Source: Chitinophaga polysaccharea (lineage in GTDB: Bacteria > Bacteroidota > Bacteroidia > Chitinophagales > Chitinophagaceae). Taken from it: a stretch of 64,000 bases of DNA. Each line of letters begins with the position of its first letter. Within the stretch, counting starts at the first letter, position 1. The stretch spans positions 124,001-188,000 of the forward strand of contig NZ_VIWO01000007.1 of assembly GCF_007829335.1 (NCBI RefSeq), written 5' to 3'. A model generated the notes under the pieces. It made no database searches. It saw only the letters and a program-made list of their open reading frames with translations, and was not told where the DNA came from. Below are positions 60 to 8,277 of this stretch, in pieces. The position numbers and the translations under genes are program-made.

Positions 60-1316
60 TTACACCAGGTATCCGAATAAGCTATCGTCTTTATTCAGCT
101 CAGTGAACTGGAAATTATATTTCTGGAAATTGGCGATCAGTTTATCGTAGTCCTCCCGGTACTTCAGTTCAACACCTACCAGTGCCGGGCCTATTTCCTT
201 GTTGTGTTTCTGGATATATTCAAAGCGGGTGATATCGTCGTTGGGGCCGAGAATATGATTCACGAATTCTCTTAATGCACCCGGGCGTTGTGCAAAGCGT
301 ACAATAAAGTAATGCTTTAATCCTTCGTAAAGCAGGGAGCGTTCTTTTATTTCCTGCATGCGGTCAATGTCGTTGTTGCTGCCACTGATTACGCATACTA
401 CTTTCTTTCCTTTTATTTCTTCAGCAAAGCCGTCGAGTGCCGCAATAGATAAGGCGCCTGCGGGTTCTACCACGATGGCATCTTCGTTATACAGGCGCAG
501 GATGGTAGAGCATACCTTTCCTTCAGGCACGAGGTGCATCTTTTCCAATACATCTTTACAGATTTCATAGTTGAGCGTACCTACTCTTTTCACTGCGGCG
601 CCATCTACAAATCGTTCAATTTCGTTGAGGGTAACGGGGCCGCCCTGTTCGAGCGCTTTGAGCATGGAAGGGGCGCCTTCCGGCTCTACGCCAATGATGC
701 GGGTTTTAGGGCTGTATGTTTTGAAGTAGGTGCCTAGTCCGGCTGCCAGTCCCCCGCCGCCTACCGGAACAAAGAGGAAATCGATACCGGATTGGTCTTC
801 CAATATCTCCACGGCCACGGTGCCCTGGCCTTCAATAATTTTTGCATTGTCGAAGGGCGGGATGAAAGTCATGTTATTAGCGGCGGTAAATGCCTGGGCT
901 TCGGCGGAGCAATCGTCGAAGGTATCGCCAGTAAGCCGGATTTCGATGTTATCGCCTCCGAACATGTTTACCTGGTTTACTTTTTGTTTTGGTGTAATTA
1001 CGGGCATAAACACCACGCCTTTGATGTTCATGGCTTTGCAGGCGTAGGCGAAGCCCTGGGCGTGGTTGCCGGCGCTGGCGCAGGTAACGCCTTTGGCCAA
1101 TATTTCAGCAGGGAGGCTGCTGATGAGGTTATAAGCACCGCGTAATTTATAGGAGCGTACAATTTGCATATCCTCTCTTTTCAGATACACATCGCATTGG
1201 TAGCGCCGGGAAAGGTTGGCGCTGTAGGTAAGCGGGGTGCGGGCCACCACTGATTTCAGCTTCACCGCTGCATCGAGGATATTCAATGAATTGACACTGC
1301 TCATTACTTCAGACAT
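60..1316 (-). CDS. ilvA: Threonine ammonia-lyase (threonine dehydratase), short form
   Basis: PLP enzyme converting threonine to 2-oxobutyrate, the committed step of isoleucine synthesis. The 418-aa protein has the PLP lysine in RSYKLRGAYN (K57), a glycine-rich phosphate loop GGGGLAAG near residue 190, and one ACT-like regulatory segment from about residue 330 (LKHYFIVRFAQRPGALREF). This makes it the single-ACT short form rather than the two-ACT E. coli type. It is the last gene of the ilv operon, 163 nt after ilvC, with a terminator directly behind. The ATG at 1316 is used; a second ATG four codons in cannot be excluded. Isoleucine feedback through the ACT segment is family knowledge, not shown here. 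Confidence 0.95.
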   Translation of the reverse strand: MSEVMSSVNSLNILDAAVKLKSVVARTPLTYSANLSRRYQCDVYLKREDMQIVRSYKLRGAYNLISSLPAEILAKGVTCASAGNHAQGFAYACKAMNIKGVVFMPVITPKQKVNQVNMFGGDNIEIRLTGDTFDDCSAEAQAFTAANNMTFIPPFDNAKIIEGQGTVAVEILEDQSGIDFLFVPVGGGGLAAGLGTYFKTYSPKTRIIGVEPEGAPSMLKALEQGGPVTLNEIERFVDGAAVKRVGTLNYEICKDVLEKMHLVPEGKVCSTILRLYNEDAIVVEPAGALSIAALDGFAEEIKGKKVVCVISGSNNDIDRMQEIKERSLLYEGLKHYFIVRFAQRPGALREFVNHILGPNDDITRFEYIQKHNKEIGPALVGVELKYREDYDKLIANFQKYNFQFTELNKDDSLFGYLV

Positions 1317-1479: not shown

Positions 1480-2526
1480 TTAAGCGTTGTTAGGACGCAA
1501 CTTACGTACTGCTGCACCAGCCTGCCACATTTCGCTTTCGCGCAGTTCTTTCAGTTCTTCGTTCAGTTTTTCGCGATAATCAGGCGTGCTGTTGGAAGCG
1601 ATAGAGCGGGCAGCTTCTTTACCTGCAGCTACGCTGGCGTACAGTTCATCAAATACAGGCTGAGTAGCTGTTTTGAATTTCTTCCACCAGTCAAGTGCAC
1701 CGCGTTGAGCAGTAGTAGAGCAGTTAGCATACATCCAGTCCATACCATTTTCTGCTACCAGTGGCATCAGGGACTGTGTCAGTTCTTCTACTGTTTCGTT
1801 GAACGCTTCAGAAGGAGAGTGACCGTTTTTACGCAGGGTTTCGTATTGCGCTGCAAAGATACCCTGGATACAACCCATCAGGGAACCGCGTTCGCCGGTG
1901 AGGTCGGAGTATACTTCTTTTTTGAAATCTGTTTCGAACAGGTAACCGGAACCAACGCCGATACCCAGTGCTACTACGCGTTCTTTAGCGCGACCGGTAG
2001 CATCCTGGAAGATAGCGAAGCTGGAGTTCAGCCCCTGACCAGCCAGGAACAGGCGACGTAGGGAAGTACCGGAACCTTTAGGGGCTACCAGGATTACGTC
2101 TACATCAGCCGGAGGAACGATACCGGTTTGATCTTTATAGGTGATACCAAACCCGTGGGAGAAGTAGAGTGCTTTACCAGGAGTCAGGTGTTGTTTCAGT
2201 GTAGGCCACAGGGTGATCTGACCAGCATCAGACAGCAGGAACTGGATGATAGTACCTTTTTGAGCTGCTTCTTCGATGTCGAATAAAGTTTCACCAGGAA
2301 CCCAGCCATCAGCTACCGCTTTATCCCAGGTTTTTGAATTCTTACGTTGGCCTACAATAACATTGAAGCCATTGTCTTTCAGGTTCAGTGCCTGGCCAGG
2401 ACCTTGTACGCCGTAACCAATTACTGCAATCACTTCGTTCTTCAGCACTTCCCTTGCTTTTTCCATAGGGAATTCTTCTCTGGTTACTACTTGCTCGAGT
2501 ACCCCTCCAAAATTGATGGTTGCCAT
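1480..2526 (-). CDS. ilvC: Ketol-acid reductoisomerase (class I)
   Basis: Converts 2-acetolactate and 2-aceto-2-hydroxybutyrate to the dihydroxy acids using NADPH and Mg2+. The 348-aa length fits the short class I form with one C-terminal knotted domain. Visible motifs are the Rossmann segment VIGYGVQGPGQALNL (the variant GPG where many bacteria have GHAH), the basic NADPH loop GQRKNS, SHGFGI with the catalytic-region His, the metal-binding SDLTGERG, and CSTTAQRGA with the substrate-contacting Ser. It sits between ilvN and ilvA on the same strand. ATG at 2526; no Shine-Dalgarno, normal for this phylum. Confidence 0.97.
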   Translation of the reverse strand: MATINFGGVLEQVVTREEFPMEKAREVLKNEVIAVIGYGVQGPGQALNLKDNGFNVIVGQRKNSKTWDKAVADGWVPGETLFDIEEAAQKGTIIQFLLSDAGQITLWPTLKQHLTPGKALYFSHGFGITYKDQTGIVPPADVDVILVAPKGSGTSLRRLFLAGQGLNSSFAIFQDATGRAKERVVALGIGVGSGYLFETDFKKEVYSDLTGERGSLMGCIQGIFAAQYETLRKNGHSPSEAFNETVEELTQSLMPLVAENGMDWMYANCSTTAQRGALDWWKKFKTATQPVFDELYASVAAGKEAARSIASNSTPDYREKLNEELKELRESEMWQAGAAVRKLRPNNA

Positions 2527-2625: not shown

Positions 2626-3165
2626 CTAAAGGCCGTGTTCTGCATCCTCTGCCTGCAATTCTTTCAGGTGTTCATGGAAACGGCGGCTCCATTTTACGAT
2701 GGCTACGCGGCCGCTTTTTGAATACTCGATCAAACCGTATGGTTCCAGTTTTTTAATGAAGTCGATCAACTCCTGCTGGTGGCCTGTTTTCTCGATCACG
2801 AAATATTCGGCAGTAATGGTGAGGATACGCGCGTTGTTTTCGCGGATCAACCTTTCGATATCGCCGGTGTGTAACGACCGGGTAGATATTTTGTATAATG
2901 CCAGCTCCTGGTATACGACTTCTTCTTCTTCGTGTACAAAGGCGCGATGTATTTCAATGAGTCTTTCTATCTGGCCTACCACTTTATCCAGCTTTTCACG
3001 TGTAGACAACACCGTTATAATGAATTTATATACACCGGGTATCTCTGTTTCAGCTGTGGTTAAACTGGTAATATTAATGCCCCTGCGGGTAAATATAATC
3101 GTGATACGGTTGGTGATACCTATACGGTCTTCCGTATATACCGTTACTGTATATTCTTTTTGCAT
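2626..3165 (-). CDS. ilvN: Acetolactate synthase regulatory (small) subunit
   Basis: Regulatory partner of IlvB that confers valine feedback inhibition. The 179-aa protein begins with an ACT domain (YTVTVYTEDRIGITNRITIIF, residues 5-25, continuing to about residue 75), followed by a C-terminal small-subunit domain ending near FIKKLEPYGLIEYSKSGR. It lies directly downstream of ilvB with a 48-nt gap. The acidic insert HEEEEVV around residue 77 links the two halves. ATG at 3165. Confidence 0.93.
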   Translation of the reverse strand: MQKEYTVTVYTEDRIGITNRITIIFTRRGINITSLTTAETEIPGVYKFIITVLSTREKLDKVVGQIERLIEIHRAFVHEEEEVVYQELALYKISTRSLHTGDIERLIRENNARILTITAEYFVIEKTGHQQELIDFIKKLEPYGLIEYSKSGRVAIVKWSRRFHEHLKELQAEDAEHGL

Positions 3166-3213: not shown

Positions 3214-4962
3214 CTACTCCAGCCTGATGGAAGTGATAGGAGCGCCTGCCGGTACCATGGGGAATACGTTATCTTCTTTTTCCACCACTACTTCGAGCAG
3301 GTAAGCGCCCTTGTGTGCCAGCATTTCATCAATGGCGGCAGATATATCTTCCCTTGCTGTTACTTTCTTGCCGGGGATAAAGAACCCTTTGGCAATCTGT
3401 ACAAAATCGGGATTGACCATTTCAGTTGAAGAATAGCGTTTGTCGAAAAACAACTGTTGCCATTGTCTTACCATTCCGAGGAAGTTGTTGTTGAGGATCA
3501 CTATTTTCACGCCGATCTGTGATTGATAAATAGTGCCCAGTTCCTGGAGGGTCATCTGGAAGCAGCCATCGCCAATGATAGCCACCACTTCTTTCTCCGG
3601 GGTACCCATTTTGGCGCCCATGGCTGCTGGCAATGAGAAGCCCATTGTACCCATACCACCGGAGGTAACATTAGTATTAGGATTTTTGAACCGGTAGTAG
3701 CGGGAAGCTACCATCTGGTGTTGTCCTACGTCTGTTACCAGTACGGCTTCTCCCTTGGTTTTTTCTGAGATGAGGCGGATTGTCTCCGCCATTTTCAGTT
3801 CACCAGCTTCGGGATATAATTCTCTATGCTGTACTTTTTCGTATTCTTTCTTATCAGCTGCCCTGAATTCTTCCAGCCATTCGCTGTGCTGTGCAGGTTT
3901 CACCAATTCCAATAGCGCTTCCAGCGCGGGTTTGGCATCGGCATGCACTGCTACATCCGCTTTCACGATCTTGTTGATTTCAGCGGCATCAATTTCGATG
4001 TGAATTACTTTGGCGTTGGGCACATAGGTACCTACGTCGCCCGTTACGCGGTCATCGAAGCGCATACCAACTGCAATAACTACGTCGGCCTCGCCGGTGA
4101 GCATATTAGGACCGTAGTTACCGTGCATACCCAGCATACCTACGTACATCGGGTGATCTACCGGCATAGCGGATAATCCCAGCAAGGTAGAGCCTACGGG
4201 GATCTGTGCTTTTTCGGCCAGTGCGATCAGTGCTTTTTCCGCACCGGATATCAGTACACCATGTCCGCAGAGGATAAATGGTTTTTTAGCGTTGTTGATC
4301 AGTTCAGCAGCGGCGGATACAGCTTCCTTGTTTAATTCGGGAAGAGGGCGATAACTGCGGATATATTCACATTTCTTATACTCATATTCGAATTCCCCGA
4401 ACTGTGCATTTTTGGTGATATCCACCAGTACGGGGCCTGGACGGCCGCTACGGGCAATATAAAATGCTTTGGCCATGGCAGCAGGGATGTCCTCCGCACG
4501 GGTTACCTGTATATTCCATTTAGTGATAGGCATGGTGATACCGATCACATCTGTTTCCTGGAATGCGTCTGTACCCAGTAAAGCGGCGGCTACCTGGCCG
4601 GTTACGCATACCATGGGGGTAGAGTCCATATAAGCATCTGCCAAACCTGTTACCAGGTTGGTAGCGCCAGGACCGGAAGTAGCAAAAGCCACACCTACCT
4701 TGCCGGAGCTGCGGGCGTATCCCTGGGCAGCATGTGTAGCACCTTGTTCATGACGGACGAGAATATGGTGTACCTGATCCTGGAAATCATAGAGGGCATC
4801 ATAAATAGGCATGATCGCCCCGCCGGGATAACCGAAGATAGTGTCGACTCCTTCTGCTATCAGGGAGCGAATCACTGCTTCAGAGCCAGTAATAACGGGC
4901 TTTACAGTCAACTGCTTATCAGCTATCTCAGGCTTCATCGGTAACACATCCTTCTGTTGCAT
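3214..4962 (-). CDS. ilvB: Acetolactate synthase catalytic (large) subunit
   Basis: ThDP/FAD enzyme condensing pyruvate with pyruvate or 2-oxobutyrate. The 582-aa protein shows the N-terminal ThDP segment [16 protein letters not shown], the catalytic glutamate in [14 protein letters not shown] (E72), [11 protein letters not shown], and the C-terminal ThDP/Mg motif [12 protein letters not shown] followed by LNNNFLG. The ATG at 4962 overlaps the ilvD end by 35 nt; a second ATG at 4938 (MKPEIADKQ) would overlap by 11 nt, and the sequence does not decide between them. The overlap suggests translational coupling to ilvD. Chain order and strand place it third in the operon. Confidence 0.95.
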
Positions 4963-6607
4963 TTTTTACAAGTTTTGCGTACTTAAATAAGATTCCATTG
5001 GATACTTTCAATGCGGGTTGTACCCATTTTGCCCTGCGGGCAGCCAGTTCTTCATCACTCAGTTCCACATTGATAAAGTTCTTTACTGCGTCGATTTCGA
5101 TGATATCATCATCTTGTACCAGGGCTATATTACCACCTTCAAAAGCTTCGGGGGTAATGTGGCCTACCACGAATCCGTGGGTACCACCGGAGAAGCGGCC
5201 ATCTGTGATGAGGGCCACACTTTTACCTAAGCCCACGCCCATGATAGCGCTGGTTGGTTTAAGCATTTCCGGCATACCGGGTGCGCCTTTAGGGCCTACG
5301 TGGCGGATGACGACGACATCTCCCTGTTTCACTTTACCGGAGGTAATACCGGCAATCAATTCAAATTCGCCATCGAATACGCGGGCGGGTCCTTTGAATC
5401 GTTCGCCTTCCTTACCAGTTATTTTAGCTACAGATCCCTGGGTGGCCAGGTTACCGTAGAGGATTTGAATATGTGCGGTTGATTTCAATGGTTTTTCCAG
5501 CGGTACAATGATATCCTGTGCGCTAAAATCCAGGTCTGGTATATTTTCCAGGTTTTCGGCAATTGTTTTACCGGTAACGGTGAGACAGTGACCGTGGAGG
5601 AATCCTTTTTGCAGGAGGTATTTCATTACCAGGGGAATACCGCCGATGTTGTGGAGGTCTTCCATGAGGTATTTACCACTTGGTTTGAGATCGGCGATCA
5701 GCGGTGTTTTATCGCTGATACGCTGGAAATCATCAATGGTAATATCAACGCCTACGGATTTTGCGATAGCGATGAAATGCAGTACGGCATTGGTGCTGCC
5801 GCCAGTGGCCATGATGATGGTGAGCGCATTTTCAAATGCGTCTTTCGTCATGATGTCCCTGGGTTTAATATCTTTTTCCAGGAGCAGGCGGATGTATTTA
5901 CCTGCGGCGAGGCACTCATCCCTTTTTTCCTTGCTCAGGGCGGGGTTGGATGAGCTATAGGGCAGGCTCATACCGAGTGCTTCAATAGCCGAAGACATGG
6001 TATTAGCGGTGTACATACCTCCACAGGCGCCGGCGCCGGGGCAGGAGTTTTGTACGATGCCTTTAAAATCGCCTTCATCGAGTTTACCGGCCATTTTCTG
6101 ACCCAGTGCTTCGAAAGCGGAGATGATGTTAAGATCCTGGCCTTTATATTTTCCAGGGGCGATAGTACCGCCGTAAACCATGATAGACGGGCGATTGAGG
6201 CGCCCCATGGCCATCAGGGAACCGGGCATGTTTTTATCGCAGCCAGGAACAGTAATGAGGGCATCATAATACTGCGCTCCGGCTACAGTTTCAATGGAGT
6301 CAGCAATCAGATCGCGGCTCACGAGGGAATAGCGCATACCGGGAGTACCATTGCTCATACCATCGCTGACGCCAATGGTATTAAAAATGAGTCCCACCAG
6401 GTCATTGGCCCAGACGCCTTTTTTCACGTCCCGTGCCAGGTCGTTGAGGTGCATGTTGCAGGTATTACCATCGTAGCCCATGCTAACAATGCCCACCTGT
6501 GCTTTTTTCAAGTCTTCCTCTGTCAAACCAATTCCGTACAACTGTGCCTGTGCGGCTGGTTGCGTAGGATCCTGCGTAATCGTCTTGCTGTATTTATTTA
6601 ATTCCAT
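4928..6607 (-). CDS. ilvD: Dihydroxy-acid dehydratase
   Basis: Fe-S enzyme that dehydrates the dihydroxy acids to 2-oxo acids, the step before transamination. The 559-aa protein has three cysteines in the expected places for cluster ligation: C50 in [13 protein letters not shown]123 in [11 protein letters not shown] and C195 in [14 protein letters not shown]. The DK pair after C123 carries the Mg-binding residues of the family. It is second in the operon, 336 nt after ilvE; the gap holds a repeat element. Its 3' end overlaps the start of ilvB. ATG at 6607. Confidence 0.96.
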
Positions 6608-6943: not shown

Positions 6944-7846
6944 TTAGGCCAGTTGAGCTTCGCGCTGGAAGGATTTTTCCAGTACTCTGGCTTTGTAGGC
7001 CTGTTGTAGTACTTTTCCGAGTGACTGTGCCCATGGTTTACCGAATGATTGTCCGTCGAGGGAGTCGAGGCCAATTACTTCAGCGGCGGTACCGCAGAAG
7101 AAGGCGCATTCGGCTTCTTTCAGTTCAGCGATGGTAAATAATTTTTCTTCCAGTGGGATATTCAGTTCCTGGCAAAGTTCAATAACGGTGGCGCGGGTGA
7201 TGCCTGGGAGGATGTTACCGGCAGGAGGAGTGTAGATTTTGCCGTCTTTTTCGAAGAAGATGTTAGCGCCGGGGCCTTCAGCAACGTAACCATTCATATC
7301 GAGGAGGAGTGCTTCATCGTAGCCTTTTTCTTTTGCTTCCTGTGAGGCCAGTATCGAGTTTACGTAGAGACCGGCGGATTTGGATTCTATCTTAAAGGCT
7401 TTAGGATTAGGTCGCTCGTAGGAGGAAGTCATTACGCGCAACAGTTTTTCTCCCAGGTACGCTCCCCATTCCCATGCGCAGATCAGGATATTTGATTCCG
7501 ATGCTGCTTTGAGGGTCATGTTAGGCGGACAGAAAACCAGCGGTCGGATGTAAGCTTCTTCCATGTTATTCATCTCCAGTACTTTGTAACAGGCGGCGAT
7601 CAACGCTTCGTTATCAAATTTGTAAGGGATGTGGATCAGTTCACAAGAGCGCTGGAGGCGGTCGAAGTGTTCTTTTGCTTTAAAAATCTTCACTTCTCCG
7701 TTAGCAGTCTTGTAGGCGCGGATGCCTTCAAATACTGCGTAACCGTAGTGGAGCGATTGGCCAAACAGGTCAGTTGTAGCGGCGTTCGCTTTGGTGTACT
7801 CACCGTTGATGTAAAGAATGGTGTTGTCGTTGTAATAGCTATACAT
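6944..7846 (-). CDS. ilvE: Branched-chain amino acid aminotransferase
   Basis: Class IV PLP aminotransferase for the last step of Ile/Val/Leu synthesis. The 300-aa protein has SLHYGYAVFEGIRAY near residues 31-45, the PLP lysine at K156 in IESKSAGLYVNS (aligning with the E. coli IlvE lysine), and the signature DEALLLDMNGYVAEGPGANIFF. It is the first structural gene of the ilv operon. Its 5' leader carries an attenuator (leader peptide 7942-8058, terminator 7879-7912), so expression of the whole operon is likely controlled here. ATG at 7846, 33 nt past the terminator T-run. Confidence 0.95.
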   Translation of the reverse strand: MYSYYNDNTILYINGEYTKANAATTDLFGQSLHYGYAVFEGIRAYKTANGEVKIFKAKEHFDRLQRSCELIHIPYKFDNEALIAACYKVLEMNNMEEAYIRPLVFCPPNMTLKAASESNILICAWEWGAYLGEKLLRVMTSSYERPNPKAFKIESKSAGLYVNSILASQEAKEKGYDEALLLDMNGYVAEGPGANIFFEKDGKIYTPPAGNILPGITRATVIELCQELNIPLEEKLFTIAELKEAECAFFCGTAAEVIGLDSLDGQSFGKPWAQSLGKVLQQAYKARVLEKSFQREAQLA

Positions 7847-7878
7847 AAAATTGAAATTATACCAGGAATCTATCGTCC

Positions 7879-7912
7879 AAAAAAAAAGCCTTCCTCTTTG
7901 CGGAGGAAGGCT
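7879..7912 (-). terminator. Attenuator terminator in the ilvE leader
   Basis: On the minus strand a perfect 10-bp stem (arms 7903-7912 and 7887-7896, AGCCTTCCTC / GAGGAAGGCT) with loop CGCAAA is followed by a run of nine T (7879-7887, one of them in the stem). It lies between the leader-peptide stop and the ilvE start, so it would block ilvE rather than end an upstream gene. The 5' arm (CCTTCCTCCG, 7901-7910) can pair alternatively with CGGAGGATAGG at 7941-7951 at the end of the leader ORF: seven pairs, a one-nt bulge, then three pairs. Confidence 0.88.
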
Positions 7913-7941
7913 CTATATCTTGTGATTATATGCACGTTTAC

Positions 7942-8058
7942 CTATCCTCCGAACTGGTGGCTAATAATGACAACGACTATAATCACGACCTTCGTGATAG
8001 CCCAATTGAGCTGAGGTACGATGTGATTAAGCTTTATATTGTCTTTATTTACCCACAT
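7942..8058 (-). CDS. ilv operon leader peptide (38 aa)
   Basis: A 38-codon ORF starting at ATG 8058 and ending in TAG at 7942. Its C-terminal half reads AITKVVIIVVVIISHQFGG, with nine consecutive valine/isoleucine codons (7963-7989) before four codons and Gly-Gly-stop. This is the composition expected of a ribosome-stalling leader for a branched-chain operon. A Bacteroidota-type promoter (-7 box at 8088-8095) places the transcript start about 20 nt before this ATG, which rules out the longer in-frame start at 8130. The last codons (Phe-Gly-Gly-stop) double as the antiterminator strand. A small hairpin, ATCACGA/TCGTGAT, lies at 7982-7998 over the first control codons. Confidence 0.85.
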   Translation of the reverse strand: MWVNKDNIKLNHIVPQLNWAITKVVIIVVVIISHQFGG

Positions 8059-8087
8059 GGAGGTGCTTGTTATTGACTGTGTTTCTA

Positions 8088-8118
8088 CAAAAGTATTCGC
8101 GAAAAAAATAAAAAACAA
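8088..8118 (-). promoter_or_regulatory. Promoter of the ilv operon
   Basis: On the minus strand TTG (8116-8118), 20 nt of spacer and TACTTTTG (8088-8095) match the Bacteroidota -33/-7 pattern TTG...TAnnTTTG. The predicted transcript start near 8080 gives a leader of about 235 nt that contains the leader peptide and the attenuator. Confidence 0.75.
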
Positions 8119-8277
8119 TAACCTTCCCAATATTTCGTAAAAAATTAATCACATTAGGTGTTTTTGAAAATATTTAAAAAAACAAGTCAATACTTGCTCT
8201 TTTTCTAAACAATTCAATAGTTCATTATAAATTAATCTACCAATTTTGTGTACAAAACACAGGTAAAGGGGCAAAAA

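Follow-up and report, generated by a model that had tools for sequence, protein, structure and literature searches.

We conclude with high confidence that the ilvEDBNCA operon of the soil bacterium Chitinophaga polysaccharea is controlled by ribosome-mediated transcription attenuation of the classic kind, and the supply of Val and Ile very probably decides, through stalling of a ribosome on a short leader peptide, whether transcription terminates before the first gene. The window, i.e., the whole stretch of 64,000 nt that was analysed, comes from assembly GCF_007829335.1 (contig NZ_VIWO01000007.1, positions 124,001-188,000). The parts of the attenuator are present and conserved in relatives, compensating changes occur in both its terminator and its antiterminator, the spacing between control codons and antiterminator is tight, and selection on the leader is protein-like. 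Attenuation was worked out in enterobacteria and has entered the textbooks; here it is found well conserved in a phylum that offers hardly any descriptions of it. The locus and more than 100 relatives yield a concrete three-hairpin model with testable bases.

The operon has the order ilvE-D-B-N-C-A, all six genes score above the NCBIfam cut-offs (Table 1), and the highest-identity named records for its ilvE are from Chitinophaga. The preliminary description had proposed a Bacteroidota-type promoter, a 38-codon ORF with nine consecutive Val/Ile codons, an intrinsic terminator just 5' of ilvE and a pairing between the leader end and the 5' arm of that terminator, and all four were recovered, the last one both in the sequence and in the fold. 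Across all six reading frames of the 64 kb window, VVIIVVVII is the sole run of at least six Val/Ile residues. The terminator scan alone is weak evidence because it gave 28 terminator-like sites in 16 kb and still 17.1 in shuffles. A separate, strong terminator-like hairpin at 8306-8278 lies 5' of the leader promoter and probably terminates the upstream gene; with this site present, assignment of the ilvE-proximal terminator to the upstream gene was rejected.

Table 1. Features of the ilv leader region and operon in the window (pairing segments are numbered 1 to 4 in the order of transcription)
Feature	Position	Strand	Description and basis
Promoter, Bacteroidota type	8088..8118	-	TTG at -33, N20, TACTTTTG at -7; predicted from sequence
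CCUCC directly 5' of leader AUG (segment 1, outer strand of protector hairpin)	8059..8063	-	Pairs with GGAGG at 7946-7950
5' strand of 1:2 protector hairpin	8038..8063	-	CCUCC and leader codons 1-7
Leader ORF, 38 codons and stop	7942..8058	-	ATG at 8058, stop at 7944-7942; peptide MWVNKDNIKLNHIVPQLNWAITKVVIIVVVIISHQFGG (38 aa)
Control codons VVIIVVVII	7963..7989	-	GTC GTG ATT ATA GTC GTT GTC ATT ATT
3' strand of 1:2 protector hairpin	7946..7974	-	End of run, AGCCACC, GGAGG
Segment 2, 5' strand of antiterminator	7941..7951	-	CGGAGGATAGG; last leader codons and stop; begins 11 nt past last Val/Ile codon
Segment 3, 3' strand of antiterminator	7901..7910	-	CCTTCCTCCG; also inside terminator 5' arm and loop
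Terminator hairpin 3:4	7885..7914	-	Terminator scan, fold, covariation
Terminator U tract	7879..7887	-	Sequence, terminator scan
ilvE, branched-chain aminotransferase (first structural gene)	6944..7846	-	TIGR01122 over cut-off; start at 7846
ilvD, dihydroxy-acid dehydratase	4928..6607	-	TIGR00110 over cut-off
ilvB, acetolactate synthase large subunit	3214..4962	-	TIGR00118 over cut-off
ilvN/ilvH, acetolactate synthase small subunit	2626..3165	-	TIGR00119 over cut-off
ilvC, ketol-acid reductoisomerase	1480..2526	-	TIGR00465 over cut-off
ilvA, threonine ammonia-lyase	60..1316	-	TIGR02079 over cut-off

The locus combines a leader ORF carrying codons for products of the operon, a terminator before the first structural gene and, at the leader end, an antiterminator that excludes the terminator; to these are added a predicted 1:2 hairpin and a spacing of the control codons that agrees with the footprint of a bacterial ribosome. 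From this layout we infer stalling, its timing and its response to Val and Ile as follows. The leader peptide would be translated as RNA polymerase moves ahead. When charged Val- or Ile-tRNA is scarce, the ribosome would stall in the run and hold 1:2 open, leaving segment 2 just past its leading edge and able to pair with segment 3; once 2:3 had formed, the terminator would be blocked and the ilv genes transcribed. Under ample supply, a ribosome at the stop codon would cover segment 2, and 3:4 would form and terminate transcription. If the leader were untranslated, or the ribosome released, 1:2 would sequester segment 2, and the default would be termination.

A search by ilvE gave matches in 58 of 59 relatives, where other aminotransferases may account for the weaker ones, and in 109 of 294 family genomes at E 1e-70. 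Of the 106 genomes that this second set newly contributed, 100 were used (G105, G109, G187, G195, G307, and G326 were left out). In all, 138 upstream regions were analysed, and the locus counts refer to related sequences rather than independent events. By a fixed rule, a Val/Ile leader is present in 129 of the 138 regions: all 38 Chitinophaga loci, 91 of 97 loci of other Chitinophagaceae genera, and none of three loci from other families of the order, two of which are short contig ends. The same rule was passed by 22 of 1380 dinucleotide shuffles of these regions (1.6%). A terminator was detected by script in 128 of the 129 leader loci; in the one miss, L046, it is visible by eye, and this locus was excluded from the pair and fold counts. 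The promoter pair is found in 38/38 genus loci and 42/91 other-genus loci, with 47 of 645 control windows matching a nearly identical pattern, and 72 of the 91 other-genus loci have a -7-like box.

A covariance model built from the run end and the terminator (R1) matches 190 of the 294 family genomes at E 0.01, the weak ones among them possibly by chance. Twenty loci were derived from R1 (19 in genomes without an ilvE match at E 1e-70, plus G062); all 20 have a Val/Ile leader, the presence of the run being partly by construction, and ilvD lies in the fetched stretch of 19. By the fixed rule, the leader before ilvE is absent in 6 of 135 family loci. L063, L083, L098, L106, and L139 have no trace of a leader, with neither GGAGG nor CCGCCT within 260 nt, and ilvE is preceded in them by an ORF that we take, from its resemblance, to be leuB-like. 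At L131 the Val/Ile run is lost, yet GGAGGTGG of the antiterminator strand and the terminator hairpin are retained, and this locus is perhaps a natural loss of control.

The alternative pairing was analysed with an alignment of 54 of the 128 loci, picked for diversity and used for the pair counts, and with folds of single loci. In the terminator, 93.2% of cells are paired and 35 cells have changed on both sides, compared with 5.8 in shuffles (reached in 0 of 500). In the antiterminator, 89.1% of cells are paired, against 51-70% when one strand is slid, and 12 cells show changes in both partners, where shuffles give 3.4 (again reached in 0 of 500). Two of five covariation measures for the antiterminator do not rise above shuffles; the count of pairs with a both-side change is reached by 85 of 500 shuffles, and that of further pair types by 359 of 500. 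The preliminary description had asked for covariation in the ilvE upstream regions of relatives, and this speaks for the terminator and, less strongly, for the antiterminator; it had also named missing conservation of the run or of the alternative pairing as what would count against attenuation, and run, terminator and alternative pairing all proved to be conserved.

The antiterminator duplex has a mean stability of -16.2 kcal/mol over the 128 loci, and 1.3% of 12,800 shuffles are equally stable. When leader ends and terminator arms were exchanged between the two large sequence classes, Chitinophaga ends with the other arms gave -11.7 and the reverse combination -14.0 kcal/mol, while pairings across loci inside one class gave -15.4 and -16.3 kcal/mol. 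The paired strands are GGAGGA(U)AGG with CCUUCCUCC in Chitinophaga, GGAGGUGG with CCGCCUCC in most other genera, CAGAGGAGC with GCUUCUCUG in L132 and L136, and GGCGGG with CCCGCC in L128 and L133. When 17 unusual loci were examined one by one, L090 alone had its own leader end as the best partner of all; in the remaining 16, the own end was outperformed by 13 to 66 of the 127 foreign ends. In folds of the stalled state, a median of 10 antiterminator pairs forms, with at least seven in 126/128 loci, compared with a median of 5 and at least seven in 461/1280 when the spacer is shuffled. The lower threshold of at least five pairs, reached in 128/128 loci, says little because 745/1280 shuffled spacers also reach it. 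Full folds contain the terminator in 117 of 128 loci, and the terminator fold is more stable than the antiterminator fold in 84 of 128.

RNAalifold gave only partial helices for the genus alignment and no structure for 63 'PA' loci or for all 91 other-genus loci; different registers between genera may be behind this. Since these alignments gave little, the folds and swaps of individual loci were used. The sequence CCTTCCTCC would be part of the antiterminator pairing and has its matching 3' arm within the terminator. GGAGGTGG is conserved as RNA and not as peptide, because it is kept at L079, where the reading frame has shifted, and at L112, where it lies behind an earlier stop with one base changed.

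The leader and terminator model of the preliminary description stands, but a third hairpin, 1:2, which spans the start-codon region, had been overlooked there. In the fold of the window, GGAGG is the partner of CCUCC just 5' of the AUG, and the run end and AGCCACC are the partners of codons 1-7. Over 128 predicted folds the 1:2 helix has a median of 29 bp, compared with 13 when the leaders are recoded synonymously and 7 when they are dinucleotide-shuffled. Only the helix length stands out, because at least eight pairs, found in 127/128 loci, are often reached by recoded (342/512) and shuffled (244/512) leaders as well. The start codon is touched by a pair in 119/128 folds, and half or more of the antiterminator strand is masked by 1:2 in 101/128 and none of it in 14/128.

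In swap tests of the 1:2 strands, the own 5' part lies in the better half for 113 and in the best 5% for 22 of all 129 loci; for the other genera these figures are 85/91 and 30/91. Crossing two sequence classes of the other genera costs 1:2 5-9 kcal/mol relative to cognate pairs. Chitinophaga 5' parts have no advantage with their own 3' parts (-26.1, vs. -26.0 with those of other Chitinophaga), and they also fit the 3' parts of other classes well (-21.8 and -23.6). Synonymous recoding of the first 12 codons causes little shift in the genus (mean z -0.45). Within the genus 95.4% of the helix is paired, against 26-69% when slid, with no double change and with pair counts not above shuffles; the CCUCC/GGAGG pairing is kept in 91.7% of genus cells, likewise without double changes. 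RNAalifold found no 1:2 consensus across the other genera as a whole. The 1:2 hairpin is thereby well supported as a predicted structure, and the swaps indicate coevolution of its strands between some genera only and not inside Chitinophaga; its role would be that of a protector or a pause. According to PMC6847099, initiation in F. johnsoniae is helped by A at -3 and -6 and hindered by structure. CCUCC before the AUG fits a pairing role because it is not what favours initiation there.

The last Val/Ile codon and the antiterminator strand are separated by a median of 11 nt (SD 2.2), with 104 of 128 loci in the range 10-13 nt, while the distance of the strand to the stop codon is more variable (SD 4.7). 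With the last Val/Ile codon in the A site, the leading edge of a bacterial ribosome would come to lie near the start of the antiterminator strand. The gap to the run being tighter than that to the stop, the strand is positioned with respect to the control codons, which is what attenuation requires.

In the 38 genus loci, codons 3-22 of the leader have a pN/pS of 0.20 in the leader frame versus 1.9 and 1.8 in the other frames, a value near that of the first 33 ilvE codons (0.19), and on these ratios the leader is under protein-like selection in its own reading frame in Chitinophaga. Together with the uniqueness of the Val/Ile run and the shuffle control, this frame-specific selection led us to reject a chance ORF. 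The last six codons of the run show few synonymous changes within the genus (pS 0.16). Outside Chitinophaga, the part before the run has a ratio of 0.63 (11 genus groups), so that the N-terminal constraint at the protein level stands out in Chitinophaga.

Such conservation, as strict as that of the start of ilvE, and the hydrophobic character of the run could also be expected of a functional small, perhaps membrane, protein, with an ordinary partial terminator behind it and the pairings as by-products. We regard this as very improbable, and rejected it as the main explanation: the part before the run is only weakly conserved in other genera, as the ratio above indicates, as RNA, GGAGGTGG is retained even out of frame or after a stop, compensating changes connect the leader end with the terminator, and the peptides of Pedobacter and Flavobacteriaceae differ yet are rich in the same residues. 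A second alternative is arrest by the nascent chain, in which the peptide, perhaps with a ligand, would stall the ribosome and the signal would not, or not only, be tRNA charging. It would be consistent with NHIVPQLNWAIT, which is under protein-level constraint in Chitinophaga and would sit in the exit tunnel while the run is translated. This alternative is improbable, although less so than the small protein; the run is made of amino acids that the operon produces, the N-terminal part outside the genus has no such constraint, and a reading of the codons is pointed to because leaders rich in His, Trp, and Phe/Tyr precede matching genes in the same genome. Attenuation by Val and Ile codons, the preferred reading, could be extended by a contribution of the Chitinophaga N-terminal chain (MWVNKDN-K-NHIVPQLNWAIT), which might help the stall from within the exit tunnel while the start-codon hairpin limits each transcript to one leader ribosome. 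We consider this extension rather unlikely; if true, it would make attenuation a one-shot decision, of a kind that suits ribosomes initiating without Shine-Dalgarno pairing.

Codon use in the run differs from that of the window. Among the Val codons of the run (at 7963-7989 and in relatives), GTC, which is rare in window genes, is favoured, and GTA, the most frequent Val codon there, is avoided: 59% are GTC and 0% GTA (187 codons in 38 loci), compared with 5% and 51% in window genes, for which the background is 28 genes with 936 codons. For Ile, ATT accounts for 80% in the run and 37% in window genes. The bias, counted from related sequences, can be read either as rare control codons or as a pairing constraint.

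The long predicted structure and the low synonymous variation at the run end and leader end might also suggest an RNA sensor that works independently of translation (T-box, riboswitch, or protein-binding attenuator), with the ORF being incidental. We give this a probability close to negligible, as the ORF is under frame-specific selection and no Rfam family, T-boxes and riboswitches included, reaches its gathering score anywhere in the window. The sub-threshold list for 7800-8200 contains no T-box and is headed by rnk_leader (RF01771; 36.5 bits, E 8.5e-5) and Thr_leader (RF00506; 24.3), followed by PyrR (22.8), RefA9 (22.7), and Phe_leader (RF01859; 20.4). The resemblance to rnk_leader, Thr_leader, and Phe_leader is weak, all three being below their gathering scores of 50, 55, and 55, and a known Rfam element was rejected on this ground.

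Leaders of this kind are not confined to the family. Of 39 genomes related to G636, 20 gave ilvE loci, all from one genus of another family, and each of the 20 has a Val/Ile leader and a terminator-like hairpin by eye; the stem sequences differ, e.g., GUGUGAGA with UCUCACAC. Named loci outside the Chitinophaga records numbered 35, and 28 of them (including Pedobacter, Oceanihabitans, and Aequorivita) show a leader and a terminator by a rule, seven of nine residues Val, Ile or Leu, that is looser than that for the 138 regions in that Leu counts fully; in 700 shuffles of these regions, a leader was found in 37 and a leader with a terminator in 0. Pedobacter leaders also contain Leu, and the weakest antiterminator duplexes among these loci (about -8 to -9 kcal/mol) are not convincing individually. 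Similar leaders with other stems are found 5' of ilvE in Pedobacter and Flavobacteriaceae, and lineages keep the attenuation logic while the letters of the stems differ. At the class level and E 0.001, R1 matched 38 of 395 genomes, of which six, the own genome included, belong to Chitinophagaceae. Seven loci outside the family were inspected (L146-L152), and a Val/Ile leader 5' of ilvE is present only at L150. R1 is not specific because it also matches the Phe/Tyr leader of the own genome.

Leader-peptide attenuators are known for ilvGMEDA and ilvBN of E. coli. The present locus resembles them in having a leader rich in branched-chain residues before an ilv operon, mutually exclusive 1:2, 2:3, and 3:4 pairings, and a terminator before the first gene. 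Unlike them, it has other sequences, a leader with Val and Ile and little Leu, an operon that begins with ilvE, and a segment 1 that spans the start codon, in a phylum without Shine-Dalgarno use; the mRNAs of Bacteroidota lack Shine-Dalgarno sequences (PMC6847099). The preliminary description had called such control little described in this lineage, which fits the open-licence literature: in the full texts as far as retrieved, no account of a Chitinophaga ilv attenuator was found, and attenuation in Bacteroidota appears only in passing mentions. Among the nearest is Flavobacterium psychrophilum, also of the Bacteroidota, for which 'strong clues' for leader-peptide attenuation before amino-acid operons are mentioned (PMC9723704), with no ilv case, model or covariation in section 19 of that paper. 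The excerpts of PMC7366714 contain a remark on sORFs, and those of PMC6429828 nothing on such leaders. Bacteroid-trp (Rfam RF01692), a putative cis-regulatory RNA in Bacteroidetes according to an extract of PMC2864571, is a different family, whose link to trp comes from its name and which has no match in the window at gathering score. Besides the phylum, the interest of the locus lies in the start-codon hairpin, the conserved N-terminus in Chitinophaga and the occurrence of several leaders in one genome, and both ribosome stalling and initiation without Shine-Dalgarno pairing could be studied with it as a simple reporter system.

The preliminary description was right about the ilv leader but had overlooked the similar leaders in other Bacteroidia and those before his, trp-like, and phe-like genes of the same genome, whose presence suggests that Chitinophaga may control its ilv, his, trp, and phe operons by attenuation. 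In front of the leuA gene of this genome that scores above its family cut-off, no leader was found. At L173 (C7:108000-113500), some 12 kb to the left of the window, two Phe/Tyr-rich leaders, MKLQATFGFYGFYYFWHQK and MLSPSNNNFFYYFSYFFYAKKQGTRLQ, stand in tandem, with, by eye and in the own genome only, a strong terminator-like hairpin after the first and one with a weaker U tract after the second. Downstream are a prephenate dehydratase-like (pheA-like) gene and an aminotransferase-like gene, both below cut-off, and further on a prephenate dehydrogenase gene over cut-off and a DAHP synthase gene that is incomplete at the locus end. Of 23 genus loci, 22 carry both Phe/Tyr leaders, and the exception, L209, has little sequence upstream; the pair is absent from the two other-family loci. 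A leader with five consecutive His, MTTNIHIHHHHHILPAR, precedes hisG (L302), and one with three consecutive Trp, MQNIITNKHWWWHGINS, precedes a trpE-like gene below its family cut-off (L303); a hairpin, terminator-like in the case of hisG, is visible by eye at each.
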